DNA from: Methylobacterium sp. AMS5
GTDB lineage: Bacteria > Pseudomonadota > Alphaproteobacteria > Rhizobiales > Beijerinckiaceae
Assembly: GCF_001542815.1 (NCBI RefSeq)
Contig: NZ_CP006992.1
Location: forward strand, 4,407,501 to 4,471,500
DNA: 64,000 nucleotides
Direction: 5' to 3'
Positions 7,435-17,504 of the stretch are shown here, in pieces (positions within the stretch are counted from its first letter, which is position 1; the number at the start of each line of letters is the position of its first letter). The notes beneath the pieces were generated by a model, which saw only the letters and a list, made by a program, of their open reading frames with translations, ran no database searches and was not told the DNA's origin. A program made the translations under genes and the position numbers.

Positions 7435-9198
7435 TCACCCGGCGAGCGCGAAGGCCGGATCGTCGGCGAAGTCGCCCCCGGACAGAATCGACTGCTCCAG
7501 GCCGCCCGCCGCCGGCAGCAGGTTCTCGGCGAAGAAGCGGGCGAGCGCGATGCGCGCGGCATGGGCCGGATCGGTCTCGCCCGCCTTCACGGCCGCGCTC
7601 GAAGCCAACCCCGCCGTCGCGAGGCAGGCCGCGCCCTGCACGAGGCCGAACAGGCGCAGATACGGCGTCGCACCGGGGAGCGCCTCCTGCGGGCGGTTCG
7701 AGGCGAGCGCCTTGAGCAGGAAACTCGTCGCCCGGTCGAGGCTGCCGATGCCGTCCCGCAGGCGCGCCGCCGCGTGGCCGAAGCCGGGGGTGCTGTCCTT
7801 CAACAGGCCCTCCGCCACCCGCCGCATCGAAGCGATCTGCGCGCCGACCGTGGCACCGCCGTTCAGCGGCAGCTTGCGGGTGACGAGGTCGATCGCCTGG
7901 ATGCCGTTGGTGCCCTCGTAGATCCCGAGGATGCGGGCATCGCGCATGAGTTGGGCCGCACCCGTCTCCTCGACGAAGCCCATGCCGCCATGGACCTGCA
8001 CGCCGAGCGAGGTCACCTCGTTGGCGATGTCGGTGGAGAAGGCTTTGGCCACCGGCGTCAGCAGCGAGGCGCGGTCATGCGCCGCCTTTCCCTCGGGTCC
8101 ATCAGCGGCGTCGAGGCCTTGCGCGGTGAGGTAGCAGATGCCGCGGGCCGCCGCCGTGTAGGCCTTCATCGTCAGCAGCGTGCGCTGGATGTCGGCATGC
8201 GCCACGATGGCGCTGACCGGCTCGGGCGAGCCCGGTGCCCGGCCCTGGCGGCGCTCGCGGGCGTAGTCGAGGGCCTTCTGATAGGCGGCTTCCGCCACAC
8301 CCACGCCCTGGAGGCCAACATTGAGCCGGGCCGAGTTCATCATCGTGAACATGCAGGCCAGCCCCCGGTTCTCCTCGCCGATCAGCCAGCCGGTCGCGCC
8401 GCCGGCGTCACCGAAGGCCATGGAGCAGGTCGGCGAGGCGTGGATGCCGAGCTTGTGCTCGAGGCCCGAACACCGCAGGTCGTTGCGCGTGCCGTCCGGC
8501 AGCACCTTCGGTACGAGGAACAGCGAGATGCCGCGGGTGCCGGCCGGGGCGTCCTTGAGGCGGGCGAGCACGAGGTGGCAGATGTTGCCGGCCAGGTCGT
8601 GCTCGCCGTAGGTGATGTAGATCTTGGCGCCCGTGATCCGGTAGGTGCCGTCGCCGTTGGGCTCGGCGCGGGTGCGCAGCGCCGAAAGGTCCGAGCCGGC
8701 CTGCGGCTCGGTCAGGTTCATGGTCGCGGTCCACTCGCCCGAGACGAGCTTTTCGAGGTAGCGCCCCTTCAGGTCGTCGGAGCCATGGGCGGCCAGCGCC
8801 TCGATGCCGCCGACGGTGAGGATCGGGCACAGGCCGAAGGCGAGGTTCGCGCCGTTCCACATCTCGGTGCAGGCGGCGGCGATCAGGTGCGGCAGGCCCT
8901 GCCCACCGTAGTCGGGGTCAGCAAGCACGCCGTTCCACCCGCCCTCGACGAAGGCGCGGTAGGCTGACGCCCAACCCGGCGCGGTGGTGACGTGCCCGTC
9001 CGAGAACGGCGTGCCGTGGCGGTCGCCGATCCGGTTGAGCGGTGCGATGACGTTGCCGGCGAACCGGCCCGCCTCCTCAAGAATGGCGACCGCATCCTCC
9101 GGGCCGATCTCCGCGCCGCTGCGCGCCAGCACGGCGTCGAGCCCCGCGACGTGGCGGAGGGTGAAGGCCATCTCCTCGACGGGCGCGCGATAGCTCAT
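7435..9198 (-). CDS. Acyl-CoA dehydrogenase, long ~590-residue type
   Basis: A 587-residue FAD enzyme with the N-terminal extension and extra C-terminal helical domain of the long acyl-CoA dehydrogenase subgroup (also the length of DmdC-type enzymes). Visible motifs are the FAD-binding MNLTEPQAGSDLSALRT, the YITYGEHDLAGN segment and the active-site region ARILGIYEGTNGIQAIDL, where the Glu of YEGTNG is the catalytic base in the family. It oxidises an acyl-CoA to the enoyl-CoA, passing electrons to ETF. The substrate chain cannot be told from sequence. The ATG at 9198 leaves 109 bp to the divergent Sua5 gene. Confidence 0.88.
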   Translation of the reverse strand: MSYRAPVEEMAFTLRHVAGLDAVLARSGAEIGPEDAVAILEEAGRFAGNVIAPLNRIGDRHGTPFSDGHVTTAPGWASAYRAFVEGGWNGVLADPDYGGQGLPHLIAAACTEMWNGANLAFGLCPILTVGGIEALAAHGSDDLKGRYLEKLVSGEWTATMNLTEPQAGSDLSALRTRAEPNGDGTYRITGAKIYITYGEHDLAGNICHLVLARLKDAPAGTRGISLFLVPKVLPDGTRNDLRCSGLEHKLGIHASPTCSMAFGDAGGATGWLIGEENRGLACMFTMMNSARLNVGLQGVGVAEAAYQKALDYARERRQGRAPGSPEPVSAIVAHADIQRTLLTMKAYTAAARGICYLTAQGLDAADGPEGKAAHDRASLLTPVAKAFSTDIANEVTSLGVQVHGGMGFVEETGAAQLMRDARILGIYEGTNGIQAIDLVTRKLPLNGGATVGAQIASMRRVAEGLLKDSTPGFGHAAARLRDGIGSLDRATSFLLKALASNRPQEALPGATPYLRLFGLVQGAACLATAGLASSAAVKAGETDPAHAARIALARFFAENLLPAAGGLEQSILSGGDFADDPAFALAG

Positions 9199-9307
9199 GA
9201 CCGGTTCACCGCTCCTCCCGCCGCGCCTTCCGGGGGCGGCGATCCCGTTTGACGGCTTGCGGCTGAAGGGTCTACGGCCGGCCGTTCTTCCTCGCATCCC
9301 CTCCGAT

Positions 9308-10297
9308 ATGGACGCCCCACCGTCAACCATCCCCACGCTGCGCCTGGCGGCCGACGCGGACGGCCTCGCGCGAGCGGCCGCCCTGCTCCGGGCGGGGCGT
9401 CTCGTCGCCCTGCCGACGGAGACGGTCTACGGGCTCGGGGCCGATGCCACCGACCCGGAGGCGGTGGCCGCGATCTATGCGGCCAAGGGCCGCCCGCGCT
9501 TCAACCCGCTGATCGCCCATGTCGCGACCGCCGAGGCTGCGTTGGCCGAGGGCGTGTTCGACGAAGCCGCCCTCCGGCTCGCGGAAACATTCTGGCCGGG
9601 GCCGCTGACCCTGGTGGTGCCGGCGGCACCCGGCGGCTCGGTCTGCGATCTCGCTCGGGCCGGCCTCGACTCCGTGGCGCTCCGCGTGCCGGCCCACGAC
9701 ATCGCCCGCGCGCTGCTGGAACGGGCCGGGCGACCGGTGGCGGCGCCCTCGGCCAACCGCTCCGGACGGGTGAGCCCCACCAGCGCCGACCATGTGCTGA
9801 CCGATCTCGACGGGCGCATCGCGGCCGTGCTCGACGGAGGCGAATGCCCGGTCGGGGTCGAATCCACCGTCGTCGCCTGCCTCGGCGGCCCGCCCCGACT
9901 GCTGCGCCCCGGCGGGGTGACGCGGGAGGCCATCGCTGCCGTGCTGGGCTTTGCCCCCGAAGCAGTCAGTGATCCGGGCTCGCGGCCCGTGGGCCCTGGT
10001 CTGCTTGCCTCGCACTACGCGCCGCGGGCCGGGGTGCGGCTCGATGCCAGGACCATCGAGCCCAGTGAGGCGGTTCTGCTGTTCGGGGCCTTCCGCCCCG
10101 CTGGGCTGGACCATGCAGCAGCGGTCGAATCCTTGAGCGAGCGCGGGGATCCGGCGGAGGCCGCCGCGCGGCTGTTCGGGGCCTTGCGCCGGCTCGACGC
10201 CTCGGGCGCACCGACCATCGCTATCGTCCCGGTGCCGGAGGAGGGGCTGGGCGAGGCGATCAACGACCGCCTGCGCCGGGCTGCGGCGCCGCGCTGA
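9308..10297 (+). CDS. sua5: Sua5-type L-threonylcarbamoyladenylate synthase
   Basis: A 329-residue protein with an N-terminal YrdC domain (GRLVALPTETVYGLGADA, then AIYAAKGRPRFNPLIAH) and the later APSANRSGRVSPTSADHV and VGVESTVV segments. The C-terminal Sua5 domain is entered by PGLLASHYAPRA. The enzyme makes threonylcarbamoyl-AMP from Thr, bicarbonate and ATP, the first step of tRNA t6A37 synthesis. Length and the second domain separate it from the short TsaC form. It is followed by a strong intrinsic terminator at 10401-10428. Confidence 0.9.
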   Translation: MDAPPSTIPTLRLAADADGLARAAALLRAGRLVALPTETVYGLGADATDPEAVAAIYAAKGRPRFNPLIAHVATAEAALAEGVFDEAALRLAETFWPGPLTLVVPAAPGGSVCDLARAGLDSVALRVPAHDIARALLERAGRPVAAPSANRSGRVSPTSADHVLTDLDGRIAAVLDGGECPVGVESTVVACLGGPPRLLRPGGVTREAIAAVLGFAPEAVSDPGSRPVGPGLLASHYAPRAGVRLDARTIEPSEAVLLFGAFRPAGLDHAAAVESLSERGDPAEAAARLFGALRRLDASGAPTIAIVPVPEEGLGEAINDRLRRAAAPR

Positions 10298-10466: not shown

Positions 10467-12230
10467 TCATCGCGCTCGCACGGCGCGCCGCTGGATCGCT
10501 CGGCGCAGGATGCGCGAGAGATCCTCCACCGAGTAGGGCTTGTGCAGCAGCGGGAAGCCGTGGTGCCCGTCCTCGGCCAGCACGTGGCTGTAGCCGGAGG
10601 AGAGCACGATCGGCATGCCGGGCGTCCGCCCCCGGATCGTGCGGGCGAGTTCGACCCCGTTCATGCCGGGCATCACCACGTCGGTGAACACCACGTCGAA
10701 GCGTTCCGGCGTCCGGTCGAGTTCGGCCAGCGCCTGCTCCGCATCCATCGCCCAGACGGTGCCGTAGCCGAGTTCGGCCAGCGCTTGCGTCGCGAAGGCG
10801 CCGACCTCGCGGTTGTCCTCGACGAGGAGCACGCAGGTGCCGTGGCCGGGGGCCAGCGGCTCGGGCTCGTCGGCGGACTCGACCATCGTCGGGGCGACCT
10901 TGGCCCGCGGCAGGAACAGGGTGAAGGTCGTGCCCTGTCCCAGCACGCTCTCCACCGCGATGTCGCCGCCCGACTGCTTGGCGAAGCCGAACACCTGGGA
11001 GAGACCGAGCCCGGTGCCCTGGCCGACGCCCTTCGTCGTGAAGAACGGCTCGAAGATCCGTGACAGGTCGGCCGGCGCGATGCCCGTCCCCGTGTCGGAA
11101 ATCGCCACCGCGACGAAGTCGCCGGGCACGGCCGGATGGGTGCGCAGGGCCGGGATCTGCCCGGCATGGCCGACGCGGATGGTCAGCGTGCCCTCGCCCT
11201 CCATGGCGTCGCGGGCGTTGACGACCATGTTGACCAGCGCCGTGTCGAACTGGCTCGGATCGGCCTCCACGAGGCAGGCGAAGGGCTCGCCGGCGGCGTC
11301 GAAGCAGGGCTCGATCAGGGTCTTCACCTGGATGCGCGCGCCGGTGAGCGTGCCGACCATGTCGGCCACCGAGGCGACGCCGCGGCCGGCATCGAACACC
11401 TCGGGCTTGAGCGCCTGGCGCCGGGCGAAGGCGAGGAGCTGGCCGGTCAGCTTGGCCGCGCGCGCCACCGTGTCGGAGATGGCATCGACGTAGCGGCGGC
11501 GGCGCTCCTCGGCGAGGTCGGGGCGCTTGAGCAGGTCGGTGGAGGATTTGATGACCGTGAGCAGGTTGTTGAAGTCGTGCGCGACGCCGCCGGTGAGCTG
11601 GCCCACCGCCTCCATCTTCTGGCTCTGGCGCAGGGCCTCCTCGATCCGCTCGCGCTCGGCCACCTCGGCGCGCAGGCGCTCGTTGGCCTCGGCGAGTTCG
11701 TGCAGGCGCAGCCGCTCCGCCGTGAGGTCGGTGATCACGCCGCAAAGGAGAAGGGTGTCGCCGTCGCCGTCGAGGCGGCTCAGCGACAGGTAGGCCGGGC
11801 GCTCGACTCCCGCCTCGCCGCACAGGGCGATCTCGCCGCGGGCCGGCATCTGCGCCGCCTGCGCGATCAGGGCGGCGAGCGCCGCGTCCTGGCCCCCGGC
11901 GGCGAAGCGCGCGAAGGACTGGCCGATCAGGCGCTCCTGCGGCGTGCCCAGGGTCTCGGCGAGCCGGCGGTTGCAGTAGAGCAGCGTCCCGTCCGGCCCG
12001 AGGGTGAAGGCGCCCTCCTGGATCTGCTCGATCAGCACCCGGTAGGGCCGGTCGGCATTCTCCAGGGTATAGACCAGCCGCTCGCCGCCCGGACCTTCGA
12101 CCACGATCGCATCGAAATCCCCCCGGCGGATCGCCGCGAGGGTATCCTCGACCTCCTCCAGCCGCGTTTCCAGCGCGCGGATGCGCGCCTGCGCCGCGTC
12201 CAAAGCCGTGGCGGCGGGCTCAGCGCTCAT
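10467..12230 (-). CDS. PAS hybrid histidine kinase with C-terminal receiver, last gene of the kai operon
   Basis: A 587-residue soluble kinase. An N-terminal coiled coil precedes a PAS domain ([31 protein letters not shown]), a second coiled coil, a HisKA box ([16 protein letters not shown]), the HATPase N and G boxes ([36 protein letters not shown]) and a receiver ([10 protein letters not shown], phosphoacceptor in [12 protein letters not shown], conserved Lys in LLHKPYS). No transmembrane segment is seen. It overlaps the upstream kaiB-like gene by 11 bp if the ATG at 12230 is used; an alternative start at 12281 adds 17 residues. Operon position makes it the probable signalling partner of the Kai proteins, which is an inference. 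Confidence 0.87.
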
Positions 12231-12555
12231 CGGCGGCCCCGTCGAGTCCAAGCCCTTCGAGTCCAAGCCCGTCGAGGACATGCCGCTCGTCGCTCAGATC
12301 GCCGGTGATGCGCCGGGCGGGGAGGGGGGAGAGCCGTATCAGGGTCGGCGCCGCGACCACGCCGTCGGCGCCCGCAAGCGCCGATTGCTGGTAGATGTCG
12401 ACCACTTCGAGGTCGCACGCGCCCCCGAGCCGATGCTCGCACAGGCGGCGCACGCTCTCGATGCTGCGGGTCGAGCGCGGCGAGGTGCCGGCGACGTAGA
12501 GGCGCAGCCGGGTGCGCCCGGCCTCCCCGTGGGCCGTGATGTCCCCGCCGCTCAA
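12220..12555 (-). CDS. kaiB: KaiB-domain protein, second copy
   Basis: A 111-residue protein with the KaiB thioredoxin-like fold: the first strand [28 protein letters not shown], then [29 protein letters not shown] and [17 protein letters not shown]. It starts with TTG at 12555, overlapping the stop of the upstream kaiB by 4 nt (TTGA), which implies translational coupling. The C-terminal LEGLGLDG tail is encoded by short repeated DNA. It is more diverged than the upstream copy: the family's conserved Lys/Arg-rich surface is altered. In cyanobacteria fold-switched KaiB binds KaiC; the role of a second copy here is unknown. Confidence 0.85.
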
Positions 12556-12923
12556 ACGCTGTCCGCCTTCGCTGCGGGACTTTTTTCTGCGAGGTTCTGG
12601 GGCTGGATATCGAGGCCGACCAGCACCTTCTCGGTGTTGGACAGGTCGCCGATGATGCGCTTGAGCGGCGCGGGCAGGCGACGCACCAGGGTCGGGATTG
12701 CCAGGATCTGGTCACCGACCGCGAGCTGCGGGTTCTTCATCAGGTCGATGACCTCGATGTCGTAGTGCCCGGCGAGGTGCTCCTCGCAGAAACGCTTGAG
12801 GTTGGCCATCGCCGTCAGCGACTTGGCAGTCTGTCCGGCGACGTAGAGGCGCAGGTGGTAATGGCCCTCGTCCACCGGGCCGCCGGCGTCGAGTCCATCC
12901 TCGGTTGGTTCGGAGCCGCTCAT
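12552..12923 (-). CDS. kaiB: KaiB-like clock-family protein, first copy
   Basis: A 123-residue KaiB-family protein with a 20-residue acidic N-terminal extension. Family segments are [80 protein letters not shown]. The LAIPTLVR cis-proline region and IIGDLS are typical. It overlaps the kaiC stop by 4 nt (ATGA). Together with kaiC it forms the conserved KaiBC pair found in many non-cyanobacteria, where it is associated with stress tolerance or daily timing rather than a proven circadian oscillator. Confidence 0.92.
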
Positions 12924-14671
12924 TGCGTGCCTCCCCGGCGGGTGGAGAGGATGCGCCGCTCGCTGGTCAGCATCGCCTCGCGCATCTCGTCCTCGCTCGC
13001 TAGCACCGCCTCTTCCTCCGCCGCGGTTTCCAGGGTGGCGCGCAGTTCGTCGATCTGGCGCTCCAGCGACTGGCGCCGCCGCTCCGCCTCGCGCCGCCGT
13101 CGGCGGCTCTCCTGCTCGCGGCGCAGAACGGCGGCGGCTTCCTCCGTCTCCTGCACGATGCGGGCGGTGCCGGTCAGCACGCCCGCCGGGCCGATATAGG
13201 CCTCGACGAGGGTGATGCCGTCGCTCGACATACTGAACTCGCGCACTTGGTTCGAGTGGCGCATGCCGCGGGCCTTGATGACGTAGAGCGTGCGCGAGCG
13301 CTCGCCGTTGGCCTCGATGTTGAGGAGCTTGATCCAGGCATCCATCAGCGAGGAGACGCCGATATTGCTGTCGTGGTCGAGGCTGCCGTCCTCGCGCAGG
13401 CTGGTGAACACGGCGGTGATGCCGCGGCTCTTCAGCATGTCGACCATGCGCAGCATCGTCGCCTGAAGCTCGGCCGGCGGGCCCCGCAGCGCCGAGAGCG
13501 GATCGACCACCACCACGGAGGGCGCGAAGCGATCGATGTCCCGGTGCATGCGCGCCAAGTGCATTTCCAGGCCGTAGAGGCTCGGACGCGCCGCCTCGAA
13601 CCGCAGCAGGCCCGCCTCGACATGGCGGGCGAGGTCGAGGCCGATCGAGCGGGCGTTGCGGATGATCTGGTCGGCGCTCTCCTCGAACACGAAGGACATG
13701 CAGCGCTCGCCGCGCGCGCAGGCCGCGTCGATCATGCTCGACGTGATCATGGTCTTGCCGGTGCCGGACTGGCCCGACACGAGGATGCTGGTGCCGCGGT
13801 GGAAGCCGCCGGGTTCGAGCATCGCGTCGAGGCCGGGGATGCCGGTGGAGGCCACGCCCTCGGCGATGGTGTAGTCGAGGTCGGCCGCGGTAACCGGCAG
13901 GACGCTGATGCCCTCGGCATCGATCAGGAACGGGTACTCGTTGGTGCCGTGGGCCGAGCCGCGATACTTCACCACGCGCAGGCGCCGGGTCGTGATCTGG
14001 TCCTCGACGCGGTTGTCGAGCAGCACCACGCAGTCGGAGACGTATTCCTCCATCCCCTGGCGGGTGAGCTGGCCCTCGCCGCGCTCGCCGGTGATGATCG
14101 CGGTCAGCCCCCGGTCCTTGATCCAGCCGAACAGGCGGCGGAGTTCGGCCCGCAGCACCGTCTCGTCGGAAAAGCCCGCGAACAGGGTCTCGATCGTGTC
14201 GAGCACGACGCGCTTGGCGCCGATCGAATCCACCGCGAAGCCGAGGCGGATGAACAGGCCTTCGAGGTCGTACTCGCCGGTCTCCTCGATCTCGCTGCGC
14301 TCCACGCGGACGTGGTCGATGGCGAGCTTGCCCTGCGCCACCAGCCCGTCGAGGTCGTAGCCGAGGGAGGCGACGTTGGCGACGAGATCCTCGGCGCGCT
14401 CCTCGAAGCTCATGAACACGCCGGGCTCGCCGAAGCGGGTCGCGCCGTTGACGAGGAAGGTGGTGGCGAACAGCGTCTTGCCGCAGCCGGCCGCGCCGCA
14501 GACCAGCGAGGGCCGCCCCTTCGGCAGGCCGCCGAAGGTGATGGTATCGAAGCCGTCGATGCCGGTGGCGACTTTCGCGAGCGCGGGGGCGCTCGTGGAT
14601 GCGCTCTTGGATGCGCCCTTCGAAGCGTCCTTGGGAGTGCCTTCGGGCGGGCTCGCGGATTCAGACGCCAA
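12920..14671 (-). CDS. kaiC: KaiC family double ATPase/kinase
   Basis: A 583-residue protein with two RecA-like domains. CI has the P-loop GAAGCGKT at residues 59-66 and catalytic Glu pair at 90-91 (SFEER); CII has GQSGTGKT at 300-307 and Glu pair at 330-331 (VFEES). Aligning CII by hand to cyanobacterial KaiC puts Ser440-Ser441 (GVSSLMDAW) at the Ser431/Thr432 autophosphorylation sites, so a dual Ser site is kept. A basic coiled coil (residues about 505-575) replaces the KaiA-binding tail, in keeping with the absence of kaiA. The start is TTG at 14671, supported by GGAG 7 nt upstream. It is the first gene of kaiC-kaiB-kaiB-kinase. Confidence 0.92.
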
Positions 14672-15050
14672 GGCAGGTCTCCAGCACGGTTTCTTCCCCG
14701 GCCGTCATCGGGGGCAACCCGTCCGGTCCGCTATCCAGGCGCGGGATCGTGATGGGGAGCGCTGCGGCCGGGACACGAGGAAGAGGGCGGGCGCCGGCAG
14801 CGGCGCCGGTCGCAGGCGCCGACGGGAGGGGGCGGAGGCGTCGTGAGGCAAGGGCGTCGTCATGAAGGCGTCATGGCGGGCCTCGATCACCCGTTGCACG
14901 GCTCCCGTAATGCAAAGGCCAGGGGGTGGCAATACACGGCCCGGCGAGCGCCCGGCAGGCTCCCCGAGCCGTGGTTCGCGGCCGATATTTCTTCGAATCT
15001 TCTACGGCTCCGCTGAAACCAATCGCCGCGCGGGCACTTTGAGGAAAGCC
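14672..15050. other. Divergent intergenic region between kaiC and a response regulator
   Basis: A 379-bp non-coding stretch that must hold the promoters for the kai operon (minus) and the response-regulator gene (plus). The half nearest the response regulator is less GC-rich (TATTTCTTCGAATCTTCTA near 14988). The Shine-Dalgarno GGAG for kaiC lies just right of 14675 on the minus strand. No convincing sigma-factor motif or palindrome was identified by eye. Confidence 0.5.
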
Positions 15051-15473
15051 GTGTCCCATCAACCCTCTGCAGCGCGCTTCACCCCAATGCCCTGTCTGTC
15101 CGAGCCGACCGATCCGTCCTCCGCGCGCCGCATCCTCGTCGTCGAGGACGAGTGCTTCGTGCGCATGGTGGCCGTGGACATGCTGGAGGATGCCGGCCTG
15201 CCGGTGGCCGAAGCGCCGGACGCCGACGCGGCCCTGCAACTCCTGGAGGGGAGGGCGCAGGCCTTCGGCGCCCTGTTCACCGACATCGACATGCCGGGCT
15301 CGATGGACGGGCTGACCCTGGCTGCGCGGGTGCGGGCGCGCTGGCCGCATATCCGCCTCGTCGTCACCTCGGGCCGGGTCCGGCCGCGCGCCGACGATTT
15401 GCCCGATGCGGGTTTCCTGCCGAAGCCCTATTGCCGCTCCGACCTGCTCGGCGCCCTCGGCCAGGCCGCCTGA
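15051..15473 (+). CDS. Single-domain response regulator, divergent from kaiC
   Basis: A 140-residue CheY-like receiver: RRILVVEDECFVRMVAVDMLEDAG, phosphoacceptor Asp in LFTDIDMPGSMDGLTLA, the Thr/Ser of LVVTSGR and the conserved Lys in FLPKPYCRSDLLGAL. No output domain is present. GTG at 15051 is preferred to ATG at 15087 because a strong GAGG site sits 6 nt before the GTG and nothing comparable precedes the ATG. It lies back-to-back with the kai operon that ends in a hybrid histidine kinase, so it may be part of the same phosphorelay, though this is only contextual. Confidence 0.85.
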   Translation: MSHQPSAARFTPMPCLSEPTDPSSARRILVVEDECFVRMVAVDMLEDAGLPVAEAPDADAALQLLEGRAQAFGALFTDIDMPGSMDGLTLAARVRARWPHIRLVVTSGRVRPRADDLPDAGFLPKPYCRSDLLGALGQAA

Positions 15474-15495: not shown

Positions 15496-16842
15496 TCAGG
15501 CCGCCGGAACCGGCCAGCTCATCTCCACCCGAAGGCCGCCGAGTTCGGAGCGGCTGAGGCGCATCCGCGCGCCGACACCCTCCGCGAGGTCGCGGGCGAT
15601 GGCGATGCCGAAGCCCGTGCCGGGCCGGGTCTCGTCCCAGCGCCGGCCGCGGGCGATGCCGGCGATTGCGGCCTCGCTCATGCCGGGGCCGTCATCCTCC
15701 AGCACCAGACGGTGTTCGCCCCCCTCCGCGCGTCCCGAGACGCGGATGCGGCGGTGGGCCCATTTGCGGGCGTTGTCGAGGAGGTTGCCCAGGATCTCGG
15801 TGAGGTCGCCCTCGTCGCCGGGGAAGGCGAGGTTTTCCGGGACCGCGATCTCCCAGCGCAGGGCCTCGCCCTCGGGCAGGCGCTTGAGGGCGCCGACGAT
15901 CCGTCCCAGTGCCGGTCCGACCGGGCAGGCGCGCCGCCGCAGCCCCCCCGAGGCCGCCCGCGCCCGGGCGAGCGTGCGCTCGACCTGCCGGCCCATGGCG
16001 TGCGCCTGCTCGGCGATCTCCGCCGCCAGGGTGGGGTCGGCGGCTTCCGTGCGGCGGGCCAGCGCGTCGAGCACCGCCAGCGGGGTCTTGAGGCCGTGGG
16101 CCATGTCGCCGGCGCCCGTGCGCGCCCGCTCCAGGTCGCGCTCCTGGGCGTCGAGCAGGCGGTTGAGATCGGCCACCAGCGGGCGCACCTCCTCGGGAAA
16201 GGTGTCGGGCAGCCGCGCCTGCGTCCCGGCATGGATCGCGGCGAGATCCGCCCGCAGGGTCCGGAAGGGTGCCAGTGCCCGGCGCACGAACAGCGACATG
16301 GCGAGCGTCAGAGCCGCGAACAGCGCGCCGAGCGAGGGCACCAGCAGGCGCAGGAAGGTGGCGCGGCTCTGGGCGAGGTCGCGGCGATCCTCGGCCACCG
16401 TGACGGCGAGCGCCACCGCGCCGCCGTGGCCCGGAATCGAGACCCGCCGGGTCACGGCGATGAGCCGGCCGCCGTCCGGCCCGGCGAGGTCGCCGACCGC
16501 CGGCTCCTCCGATGTGTCGGGAAGCGTGCCGAGGCTCCGGTCCCAGAGCGAGCGCGAGCGCAGGGCGGTGCCGCCGGCACGCTCGACTTGCCAATAGAGG
16601 CCGCCATAGGGCGTCGAGAAGCGCGAATCCGGCGGCTCGCGCGGCAGGGTCGGGGCCCCGTCCGGCGCCAGGGCGACCTGCCCGGCGATGAGCTTGGCAG
16701 TGCGGTCGAGGCCGTCGGCGGTGCGGGCGTCGAGCACCCGGTCGAAGATCAGCGTCAGCCCGATCCCGGCCAGCACCAGCGCCAGGGCGATCAGCCCGGC
16801 GGCGGCGAGCCCGAGCCGCAGGCGCAGCGAGCCGCTGTTCAC
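15496..16842 (-). CDS. Envelope-sensing histidine kinase (PhoQ/QseC-like)
   Basis: A 448-residue sensor kinase. Two transmembrane helices flank a periplasmic domain of about 130 residues; a HAMP region (RRALAPFRTLRADLAAI) leads to the unusual phosphoacceptor box DMAHGLKTPLAVLDAL, typical of PhoQ-like kinases. The N-box reads LTEILGNLLDNARKWA and the G boxes LEDDGPGMSE and GTGFGIAIARDLAE. The start is GTG at 16842, overlapping the stop of the response regulator by 4 nt. With the regulator and an upstream PepSY protein it forms a three-gene operon of the kind that responds to periplasmic stress, divalent cations or antimicrobial peptides in relatives. Confidence 0.87.
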   Translation of the reverse strand: MNSGSLRLRLGLAAAGLIALALVLAGIGLTLIFDRVLDARTADGLDRTAKLIAGQVALAPDGAPTLPREPPDSRFSTPYGGLYWQVERAGGTALRSRSLWDRSLGTLPDTSEEPAVGDLAGPDGGRLIAVTRRVSIPGHGGAVALAVTVAEDRRDLAQSRATFLRLLVPSLGALFAALTLAMSLFVRRALAPFRTLRADLAAIHAGTQARLPDTFPEEVRPLVADLNRLLDAQERDLERARTGAGDMAHGLKTPLAVLDALARRTEAADPTLAAEIAEQAHAMGRQVERTLARARAASGGLRRRACPVGPALGRIVGALKRLPEGEALRWEIAVPENLAFPGDEGDLTEILGNLLDNARKWAHRRIRVSGRAEGGEHRLVLEDDGPGMSEAAIAGIARGRRWDETRPGTGFGIAIARDLAEGVGARMRLSRSELGGLRVEMSWPVPAA

Positions 16843-17504
16843 GGCGGATCGGACGGCACGAGGTAGCCGTGGCCGCGGCGGGTCTCGATGATGCCGGGGC
16901 CGAGCTTGCGCCGCAGCCGGGTCAGCAGAGCCTCCAGCGCGTTGGCCTCGCGGTCGCTGTCGCTGCCGTGGAGATGGTCGAGCAGCTCGCCCGCCGCCAC
17001 GACCTGCCCCTGGCGGTGGAGCAGGAAGGCGAGCAGGCGGTATTCGAGCGCGGTGAGGTCGGCCTCGCGGCCCGCCACCGAGACCGCGCGGGTGCGGGTG
17101 TCGAGTTCGACCGCGCCGGCCCGCAGGACGGGAGAGGCGTGGCCGGCGGTGCGGCGCAGGATGGCGCGCAGCCGCGCCACCAGCTCCTCCATCCGGAACG
17201 GCTTGACGAGGTAGTCGTCGGCGCCCGCGTCGATCCCCTCGACCCGCTCGCGCCAGCCGTCGCGGGCCGTGAGGATCAGCACCGGCAGGGCGACGTCGGC
17301 CCCGCGCAGGCGGCGCAGCACGCCGAGGCCGTCGAGCCGCGGCAGGCCGAGGTCGAGCACCATGGCGTCGTAAGTCTCGGTCTCGGCCCGGAACCACGCC
17401 GCCTCGCCGTCGCCGACGATCTCGGCGACGTAGCCGGCCCGCTCCAGACCCTCGCTGATGTCGGCCGCGATGCGCGGCTCGTCTTCTACGACGAGGATGC
17501 GCAT
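16839..17504 (-). CDS. OmpR/PhoB-family response regulator
   Basis: A 221-residue regulator with an N-terminal receiver (MRILVVEDEPRIAADISEGLERAG, phosphoacceptor in MVLDLGLPRLDG, Thr in LILTARDG, Lys in YLVKPFRMEEL) and a C-terminal winged helix (LTALEYRLLAFLLHRQGQVV, then LEALLTRLRRKLG and TRRGHGYLV). Partner kinase overlaps its 3' end. The closest architectural parallels are PhoP/QseB-like regulators. It begins 24 bp after the PepSY gene. Confidence 0.9.
   Translation of the reverse strand: MRILVVEDEPRIAADISEGLERAGYVAEIVGDGEAAWFRAETETYDAMVLDLGLPRLDGLGVLRRLRGADVALPVLILTARDGWRERVEGIDAGADDYLVKPFRMEELVARLRAILRRTAGHASPVLRAGAVELDTRTRAVSVAGREADLTALEYRLLAFLLHRQGQVVAAGELLDHLHGSDSDREANALEALLTRLRRKLGPGIIETRRGHGYLVPSDPP

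Follow-up and report, generated by a model that had tools for sequence, protein, structure and literature searches.

A conserved kinase module beside kaiB in a KaiA-less KaiBC operon of Methylobacterium is a candidate Kai-reading domain

How the state of a KaiBC timer is read in a cell that has no KaiA is the question raised by one operon of Methylobacterium sp. AMS5. The operon lies in a stretch of 64,000 nucleotides (contig NZ_CP006992.1, positions 4,407,501 to 4,471,500; hereafter the window) and consists of four tightly packed open reading frames (ORFs) on the minus strand, which encode KaiC, two KaiB of which the second is diverged, and a PAS-HisKA-HATPase-receiver kinase. The ORF list and the Pfam matches agree on this layout, which a first-pass annotation made from the DNA letters alone had described as four overlapping genes. 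The operon itself has already been published; what is new here is a conserved module at the N-terminus of the kinase. We assign a probability of roughly 0.5 to the reading that this module is a domain, of a kind not yet described, that reads Kai proteins by a third route beside those of SasA and CikA. On this reading it would recognize KaiB or KaiB-bound KaiC, would serve KaiA-less KaiBC systems across Proteobacteria, Bacteroidota, and Methanoperedens-type archaea, and would be plugged into HisKA kinases, HWE kinases, or cyclic-di-GMP enzymes, or stand alone as an adaptor. The narrower claim, that the module is the Kai-reading piece of the kinase, is one toward which its sequence distribution leads us to lean.

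The module comprises about 60 residues, and the profile built for it, A1, has 61 positions. Its consensus across 26 rows is xxxELxxRLxEAEETLxAIRxGxVDAxVVxGxxGxQVYTLxxADRPYRxLIEQMQEGAVTL. No Pfam family covers kinase residues 1-79 at an E-value of 0.001, and among the 25 of 112 NCBIfam matches listed, the earliest begins at residue 96. A profile search of the Protein Data Bank (PDB) with the module gave a best E-value of only 0.12, and searches of the open-licence literature returned no description of it. By these libraries and this literature, the module is undescribed. An AlphaFold2 model of the first 200 residues of the kinase (67 sequences) contains a helix at residues 23-52, a hairpin at 58-62/68-72, a helix at 77-86, and a confidently predicted PAS domain.

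The distribution of the module was examined in loci that encode relatives of the window's KaiC and in genomes scanned irrespective of context. Among the best 80 of at least 537 confirmed loci, a single-sequence phmmer search with the window's module alone found it in the kinases of 78 loci; the loci belong to Alpha-, Beta-, and Gammaproteobacteria, Bacteroidota, Methanoperedens-type archaea, Rokubacteria, and Planctomycetota. These 80 loci also served to train a hidden Markov model (HMM) of the module family, whose matches among them are therefore not independent. A protein search with the module gave 324 relatives (120 listed), with no information on genomic context. The hosts of the 80 loci include Methylobacteriaceae, Acetobacteraceae, Azospirillum, Bradyrhizobium, Pseudomonas, Luteibacter, Bacteroidota, Methanoperedens, Rokubacteria, and one planctomycete. 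Two KaiB and a module-bearing protein, in the order kaiC-kaiB-kaiB-kinase, occur in 74 of the 80. The operon that the first-pass annotation singled out thus exists, but its arrangement is neither unusual nor new, being both published in M. extorquens AM1 and shared by these loci. Elsewhere the number of KaiB is three (L066), four (L069), or one (L054, L072, L085), and in L043 the contig stops just past its KaiB. The four kaiB of the planctomycete locus L069 (4781-8236) stand in tandem behind kaiC.

The context-free scans covered 289 alphaproteobacterial, 299 Pseudomonadota, and 247 Bacteroidota genomes, in overlapping samples (G000 is in two), and scored no more than 21-25 first-look candidates per genome (21-22 in the class and phylum scans, where some genomes had more). 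Profile A1 matched in 4, 11, and 19 of these genomes, respectively; KaiB scored above its cut-off in 10, 35, and 25. Counting G000 once, 33 genomes matched in total, and 30 of the matches are clear (E-value 5.4e-8 or better). Each of the 30 lies beside kaiB, at 49-102 base pairs (bp) from the KaiB domain in 28 genomes and 305 bp in 2; in G000 the module (E-value 5.5e-28) is 83 bp from kaiB-b. When all first-look candidates were scored, each of 30 cassette-bearing genomes held exactly one copy of the module, the cassette's own. The three remaining matches (G377, G469, and G750; E-values 3e-4 to 7e-4) are weak and have no KaiB on that contig. They were treated as chance, although three is somewhat above the roughly one match per thousand genomes expected at that threshold.

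What stands behind the module varies among loci. In the window it is followed by HisKA and a receiver, in L107 and L108 by an HWE kinase, and in L094 by GGDEF-EAL, while the proteins of L073 (241 residues) and L090 (236 residues, with a separate kinase adjacent) carry the module without any catalytic part. L065 was rejected as a further stand-alone module and not counted; its split looks like a frameshift, with the kinase ORF continuing in another frame. In 12 loci of another type, in which kaiB precedes a more distant KaiC, no module was detected (L100-L105, L109-L111, L115, L121, L124).

Which Kai protein the module follows can be judged from 25 Bacteroidota genomes with this type of KaiC (at least 45% identity), of which 20 have KaiB and 5 do not. 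The module is present in 18 of the 20 with KaiB versus none of the 5 without (Fisher p 0.0004, kinship ignored). The KaiC of all five KaiB-less genomes (G627, G647, G708, G771, G815) retain the C-terminal tail. Conversely, the near relatives G721 and G825 encode a KaiC without the tail (the profile match stops at 473/568), and both retain KaiB and the module. The module therefore follows KaiB and not the tail, and KaiB or KaiB-bound KaiC is accordingly the likelier partner in the binding that we infer. That this partner is KaiB rather than KaiC alone is, in our estimate, an even bet.

Several neighboring genes of these Bacteroidota loci were also recorded. An unrelated ORF of about 82 codons sits between kaiB and the kinase in G721 and G825 (L116, L117). 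A hidden second KaiB in this 305-bp gap was considered and rejected, the ORF having no match to KaiB and, in G721, none to Pfam. A gene for an MlaE lipid-transport permease lies about 0.3-0.6 kilobases after the KaiB-less kaiC of G627, G708, and G815 (L128, L130, L132), and the locus of G771 (L131) has similarly sized ORFs in the opposite orientation. A NarL/LuxR-type response regulator gene, not a module protein, follows kaiC in L129/G647, which lacks KaiB (Pfam), and in L123/G670, which has it (by eye).

The operon that carries the module is almost certainly a KaiA-less KaiBC switch of the R. sphaeroides type and the counterpart of kaiC1-kaiB2-kaiB1-kaiR1 of M. extorquens AM1. Its genes overlap by 4 bp (kaiC/kaiB-a), 4 bp (kaiB-a/kaiB-b), and 62 bp (kaiB-b/kinase) at the listed starts, the last overlap falling to 11 bp if the kinase starts at its second Met (12230). 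The KaiC family PF06745 matches with 359.8 bits over two stretches, and the two KaiB score 89 and 69.4 bits. Pfam matches of the kinase above cut-offs are PAS_4, HisKA, HATPase_c, and Response_reg; the domains span residues 85-190 (PAS), 227-290 (HisKA), 341-460 (HATPase), and 484-588 (receiver). The receiver scores 58.3 bits against a cut-off of 30.2, and its acceptor Asp was read by eye in FTDVVMPG. In the host genome (5.6 Mb, 4 contigs), kaiB-a and kaiB-b are the only KaiB matches, and KaiA (PF07688) has no match across the whole genome, whereas the Synechococcus control matched.

The KaiC of the window has two ATPase domains with both Glu pairs intact, and its Lys/Arg finger positions and Ser pair are conserved. 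A comparison of 82 KaiC with that of R. sphaeroides shows the Ser-Ser pair in every sequence and no variation in the CII Glu pair or at the Lys/Arg positions of either domain; the CI Glu pair is intact except in one or two rows that are truncated or misaligned at that end. The best PDB match is R. sphaeroides KaiC (8dba), at 674 bits versus 324-368 for cyanobacterial-type and other KaiC. The tail aligns with 8dba up to its residue 551, by alignment a C-terminal extension of at least about 50 residues, and in 79 of 83 sequences measured the tail reaches about 79-106 residues past the LTG motif (of the other four, one has 13 residues and three have no motif). With these residues, KaiB present, and KaiA absent, the operon groups with the KaiA-less KaiBC systems of R. 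sphaeroides type, and the first-pass description of a KaiA-less KaiC with Glu pairs, a Ser-Ser, and a coiled-coil tail is borne out. As judged by the alignment, a coiled-coil tail without KaiA is the known, solved fold of R. sphaeroides KaiC.

The closest studied relative by gene order is the AM1 operon, which is accompanied by a kaiC2-kaiR2 locus (PMC8069551). Set against the text of that review, the two operons share gene order, two KaiB, a Ser pair that is phosphorylated in AM1, a second kaiC-kaiR locus, and a methylotrophic host. The phosphorylated residues of AM1 KaiC1 are S432/S433 (PMC8069551), an offset of 8 from the 440/441 of the window that derives from the review text, not the AM1 sequence. 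By gene order and Ser pair, the KaiC of the window is the orthologue of AM1 kaiC1. The N-terminal kinase module is not named in section 4.2 of the review (PMC8069551). The host genome likewise encodes a second two-domain KaiC (C1:29041-30420), in a locus (L091) in which the KaiC ORF overlaps a kinase ORF by 4 bp. That kinase matched a HisKA-HATPase core and a C-terminal receiver, and its N-terminus looks receiver-like by eye; the KaiB and module profiles gave no match at this locus.

In AM1, loss of kaiC1 causes sensitivity to ultraviolet (UV) light, whereas loss of kaiC2 or labA causes UV resistance (PMC8069551). The stress link raised by the first-pass annotation is thus already published for an operon of the same order, and the host's label as a methylotroph is reasonable, its nearest relative in the collection being Methylobacterium sp. 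Leaf123 (KaiC 95% identical, in a collection search that leaves out very near genomes). The review is divided on the amount of KaiC1, which according to its section 4.2 falls as growth temperature rises and according to its Figure 3 legend is induced by UV and/or high temperature (PMC8069551). By analogy with AM1 KaiC1 and UV, what the operon delivers to the cell is probably survival under stress and not a free-running rhythm.

R. sphaeroides (Cereibacter) KD131 resembles the window in the coiled-coil extension of its KaiC, the lack of KaiA, its kaiC-kaiB-kinase operon, and a kinase that has the module core at its start (residues 4-44, 53 bits). It differs in having one KaiB instead of two and an HWE kinase instead of HisKA and a receiver. 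In photosynthetic Bradyrhizobium, BRADO1478-1481 likewise comprises kaiC and kaiB and then a PAS kinase, but, by the published description, one kaiB and a separate receiver gene (PMC3899966). SasA and CikA are also histidine kinases, and they read the state of KaiC or KaiB, as is proposed for the kinase of the window; SasA does so via a thioredoxin-like, KaiB-like N-terminal domain and CikA via a C-terminal pseudo-receiver (PMC6378743). Unlike SasA, the kinase of the window has no KaiB-like N-terminal domain by Pfam and begins in the model with a helix and a hairpin. Unlike CikA, it ends in a receiver with an acceptor Asp and not in a pseudo-receiver.

The two KaiB copies differ in how strongly they are conserved. 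Sequences of the first KaiB average 75% pairwise identity and those of the second 53%, and in 99.7% of locus pairs (74 loci) the two first copies resemble each other more than the two second copies do, in agreement with the first-pass view that the copies have diverged. All 77 second-position rows, from all groups, fall on one side of a branch of the tree, with a Shimodaira-Hasegawa-like approximate likelihood ratio test (SH-aLRT) value of 84, below the 95 mark and from few columns, and first-position KaiB needs five label changes on the same tree. A single old origin of the second KaiB is favored but not proven. In T. elongatus KaiB, G89A and D91R lock the fold-switched form (PMC6378743). Gly89 is retained in 80/80 first-position and 54/77 second-position KaiB. 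Residue 91 is mostly Asp in the first-position set (64 of 80, with Asn in 12); in the second-position set it is Gly in 41 of 77 and Asp in 21, and Tyr48 and Gln49 each occur in 69. These counts exclude the extra KaiB copies in L066 and L069 as well as the first copy in L066, which is diverged. The differences between the two positions suggest an unlike fold-switch balance and an unlike surface. By conservation, kaiB-b is an old, faster-evolving paralogue, and such data do not indicate the sign of its effect. The first-pass annotation had proposed that the copies differ in binding or are antagonists; a difference in conservation at fold-switch positions is found, but conservation data do not extend to antagonism. 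Competition of KaiB-a and KaiB-b for KaiC would accord with an old paralogue split and with those positions, but many cassettes have a single KaiB, either a-like (L092-L095) or b-like (L099), and we regard antagonism as improbable.

These comparisons allow a working model to be proposed. In R. sphaeroides, KaiC is a dodecamer with fast, KaiA-independent autophosphorylation, in which the C-terminal extension joins two hexamers as a coiled coil and an exposed A loop leads to phosphorylation without KaiA, the Ser pair being S413/S414 in that paper's numbering (PMC10076222). By alignment, the KaiC of the window would likewise autophosphorylate on its Ser pair without KaiA, its extension keeping the A loop exposed. 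Fold-switched KaiB-a would then bind the CI ring and drive KaiC back to the dephosphorylated state, by extension from the KaiB-driven return of phosphorylated KaiC in R. sphaeroides. From genomic association, the kinase may read KaiB-bound KaiC through its module, which would touch KaiB or the KaiB-KaiC complex and pass the signal through PAS to HisKA and the receiver. Strand 2 of the CikA pseudo-receiver pairs with strand 2 of fold-switched KaiB (PMC6378743), and it is our guess that the module hairpin could pair with KaiB by strand addition in the same way. KaiB-b might be a specialized paralogue, perhaps a subunit of mixed complexes or a kinase-facing adaptor.

A number of observations weigh against a Kai-reading role of the module. 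Its hairpin is modeled with low confidence (predicted local distance difference test about 60-70); a strongly conserved, poorly fixed hairpin would suit a docking piece, but the low confidence is itself no evidence for docking. G670 and G597 have this type of KaiC and KaiB yet no module, the match in L092 is weak (24 bits), as is that in L085, and the R. sphaeroides kinase retains only the first ~41 module positions. Kinases adjacent to kai genes were the source of profile A1, which includes rows from at least 4 of the 30 genomes with clear matches (G000, G071, G576, G577). A tight tie to the second KaiB, at which the first 4 genomes (all with two KaiB) hinted, was abandoned, as the 30 divide into 17 with two KaiB near the module and 13 with one. 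Finally, the kinase might feed signals into KaiBC instead of serving as its output, and the AM1 model puts LabA downstream of both KaiC (PMC8069551). If so, PAS would sense redox or another cue and act on KaiBC, and output would pass through LabA or another protein. The operon histidine kinase of R. sphaeroides has been suggested to carry a redox signal to KaiBC (PMC5520375), and one LabA-like NYN-family protein is encoded in the host genome. However, the module is constant while the catalytic ends vary from HisKA and HWE to GGDEF-EAL or none, which better fits a fan of outputs, and we hold the input role to be unlikely, though the most serious of the alternatives.

The same exchange of catalytic parts bears on the proposal that the module is a mere dimerization or signaling helix ahead of PAS, carried along with the whole kinase in an operon that moves as a unit. 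The long helix and uncertain hairpin of the model agree with this proposal. Yet the module stayed when catalytic parts were exchanged, and generic signaling helices would be expected in other kinases of the same genomes too, yet each of 30 genomes has a single copy; we find the proposal doubtful. Docking of the module onto the KaiC coiled-coil tail is suggested by the helical character of both and by their shared occurrence in this type of operon, but it seems less plausible still: the module persists in the tail-less G721 and G825, and tailed KaiC without KaiB never has it (5/5). A self-sustained circadian oscillator is very improbable. Kai proteins are present, but the genome differs from the cyanobacterial KaiABC systems in lacking KaiA, and the nearest studied system, that of R. 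sphaeroides, is described as an ATP/ADP-driven hourglass (PMC10076222). Among these readings, that of a Kai-reading module remains the one we prefer.

Coordinates in the window are collected in the table. A divergent single-domain receiver gene (14862-15473, plus strand; Pfam Response_reg) lies beside kaiC. It was considered as a part of the system and rejected, a similar neighbor occurring in just 4 of the 80 loci (L011, L013, L014, L038).

Table. Features of the kai operon and flanking genes in the window
Feature	Position	Strand	Description or basis
kaiC	12920-14671	-	583 residues, TTG start; two ATPase domains (CI, CII) and a C-terminal coiled-coil extension; Ser440-Ser441
kaiB-a	12552-12923	-	123 residues, ATG start; first KaiB, canonical, strongly conserved
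kaiB-b	12220-12555	-	111 residues, TTG start; second, diverged KaiB paralogue
Hybrid kinase	10467-12281	-	604 residues, ATG start; KaiR1 position
KaiC C-terminal tail	12923-13138	-	begins near residue 512; aligns with the coiled coil of R. sphaeroides KaiC (8dba)
Ser440-Ser441 autophosphorylation pair of KaiC	13349-13354	-	comparison with AM1 KaiC1 and R. sphaeroides KaiC
Kai-linked N-terminal module of kinase	12027-12212	-	residues ~24-85: helix, hairpin, start of pre-PAS helix; profile and model
Acyl-CoA dehydrogenase	7435-9336	-	Pfam
Sua5/YrdC-type threonylcarbamoyl-AMP synthase	9197-10297	+	Pfam
OmpR-type regulator and histidine kinase	15496-17504	-	Pfam

In KaiA-less KaiBC systems, the module may be the piece that reads the timer. 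It keeps its place next to kaiB in several phyla as the catalytic part changes, which offers a concrete and cheap test of timer reading, R. sphaeroides KaiB and KaiC having already been purified by others and M. extorquens being an established genetic system. The module would also serve as a sequence marker for the Kai-system kinase among the dozens encoded in each genome.

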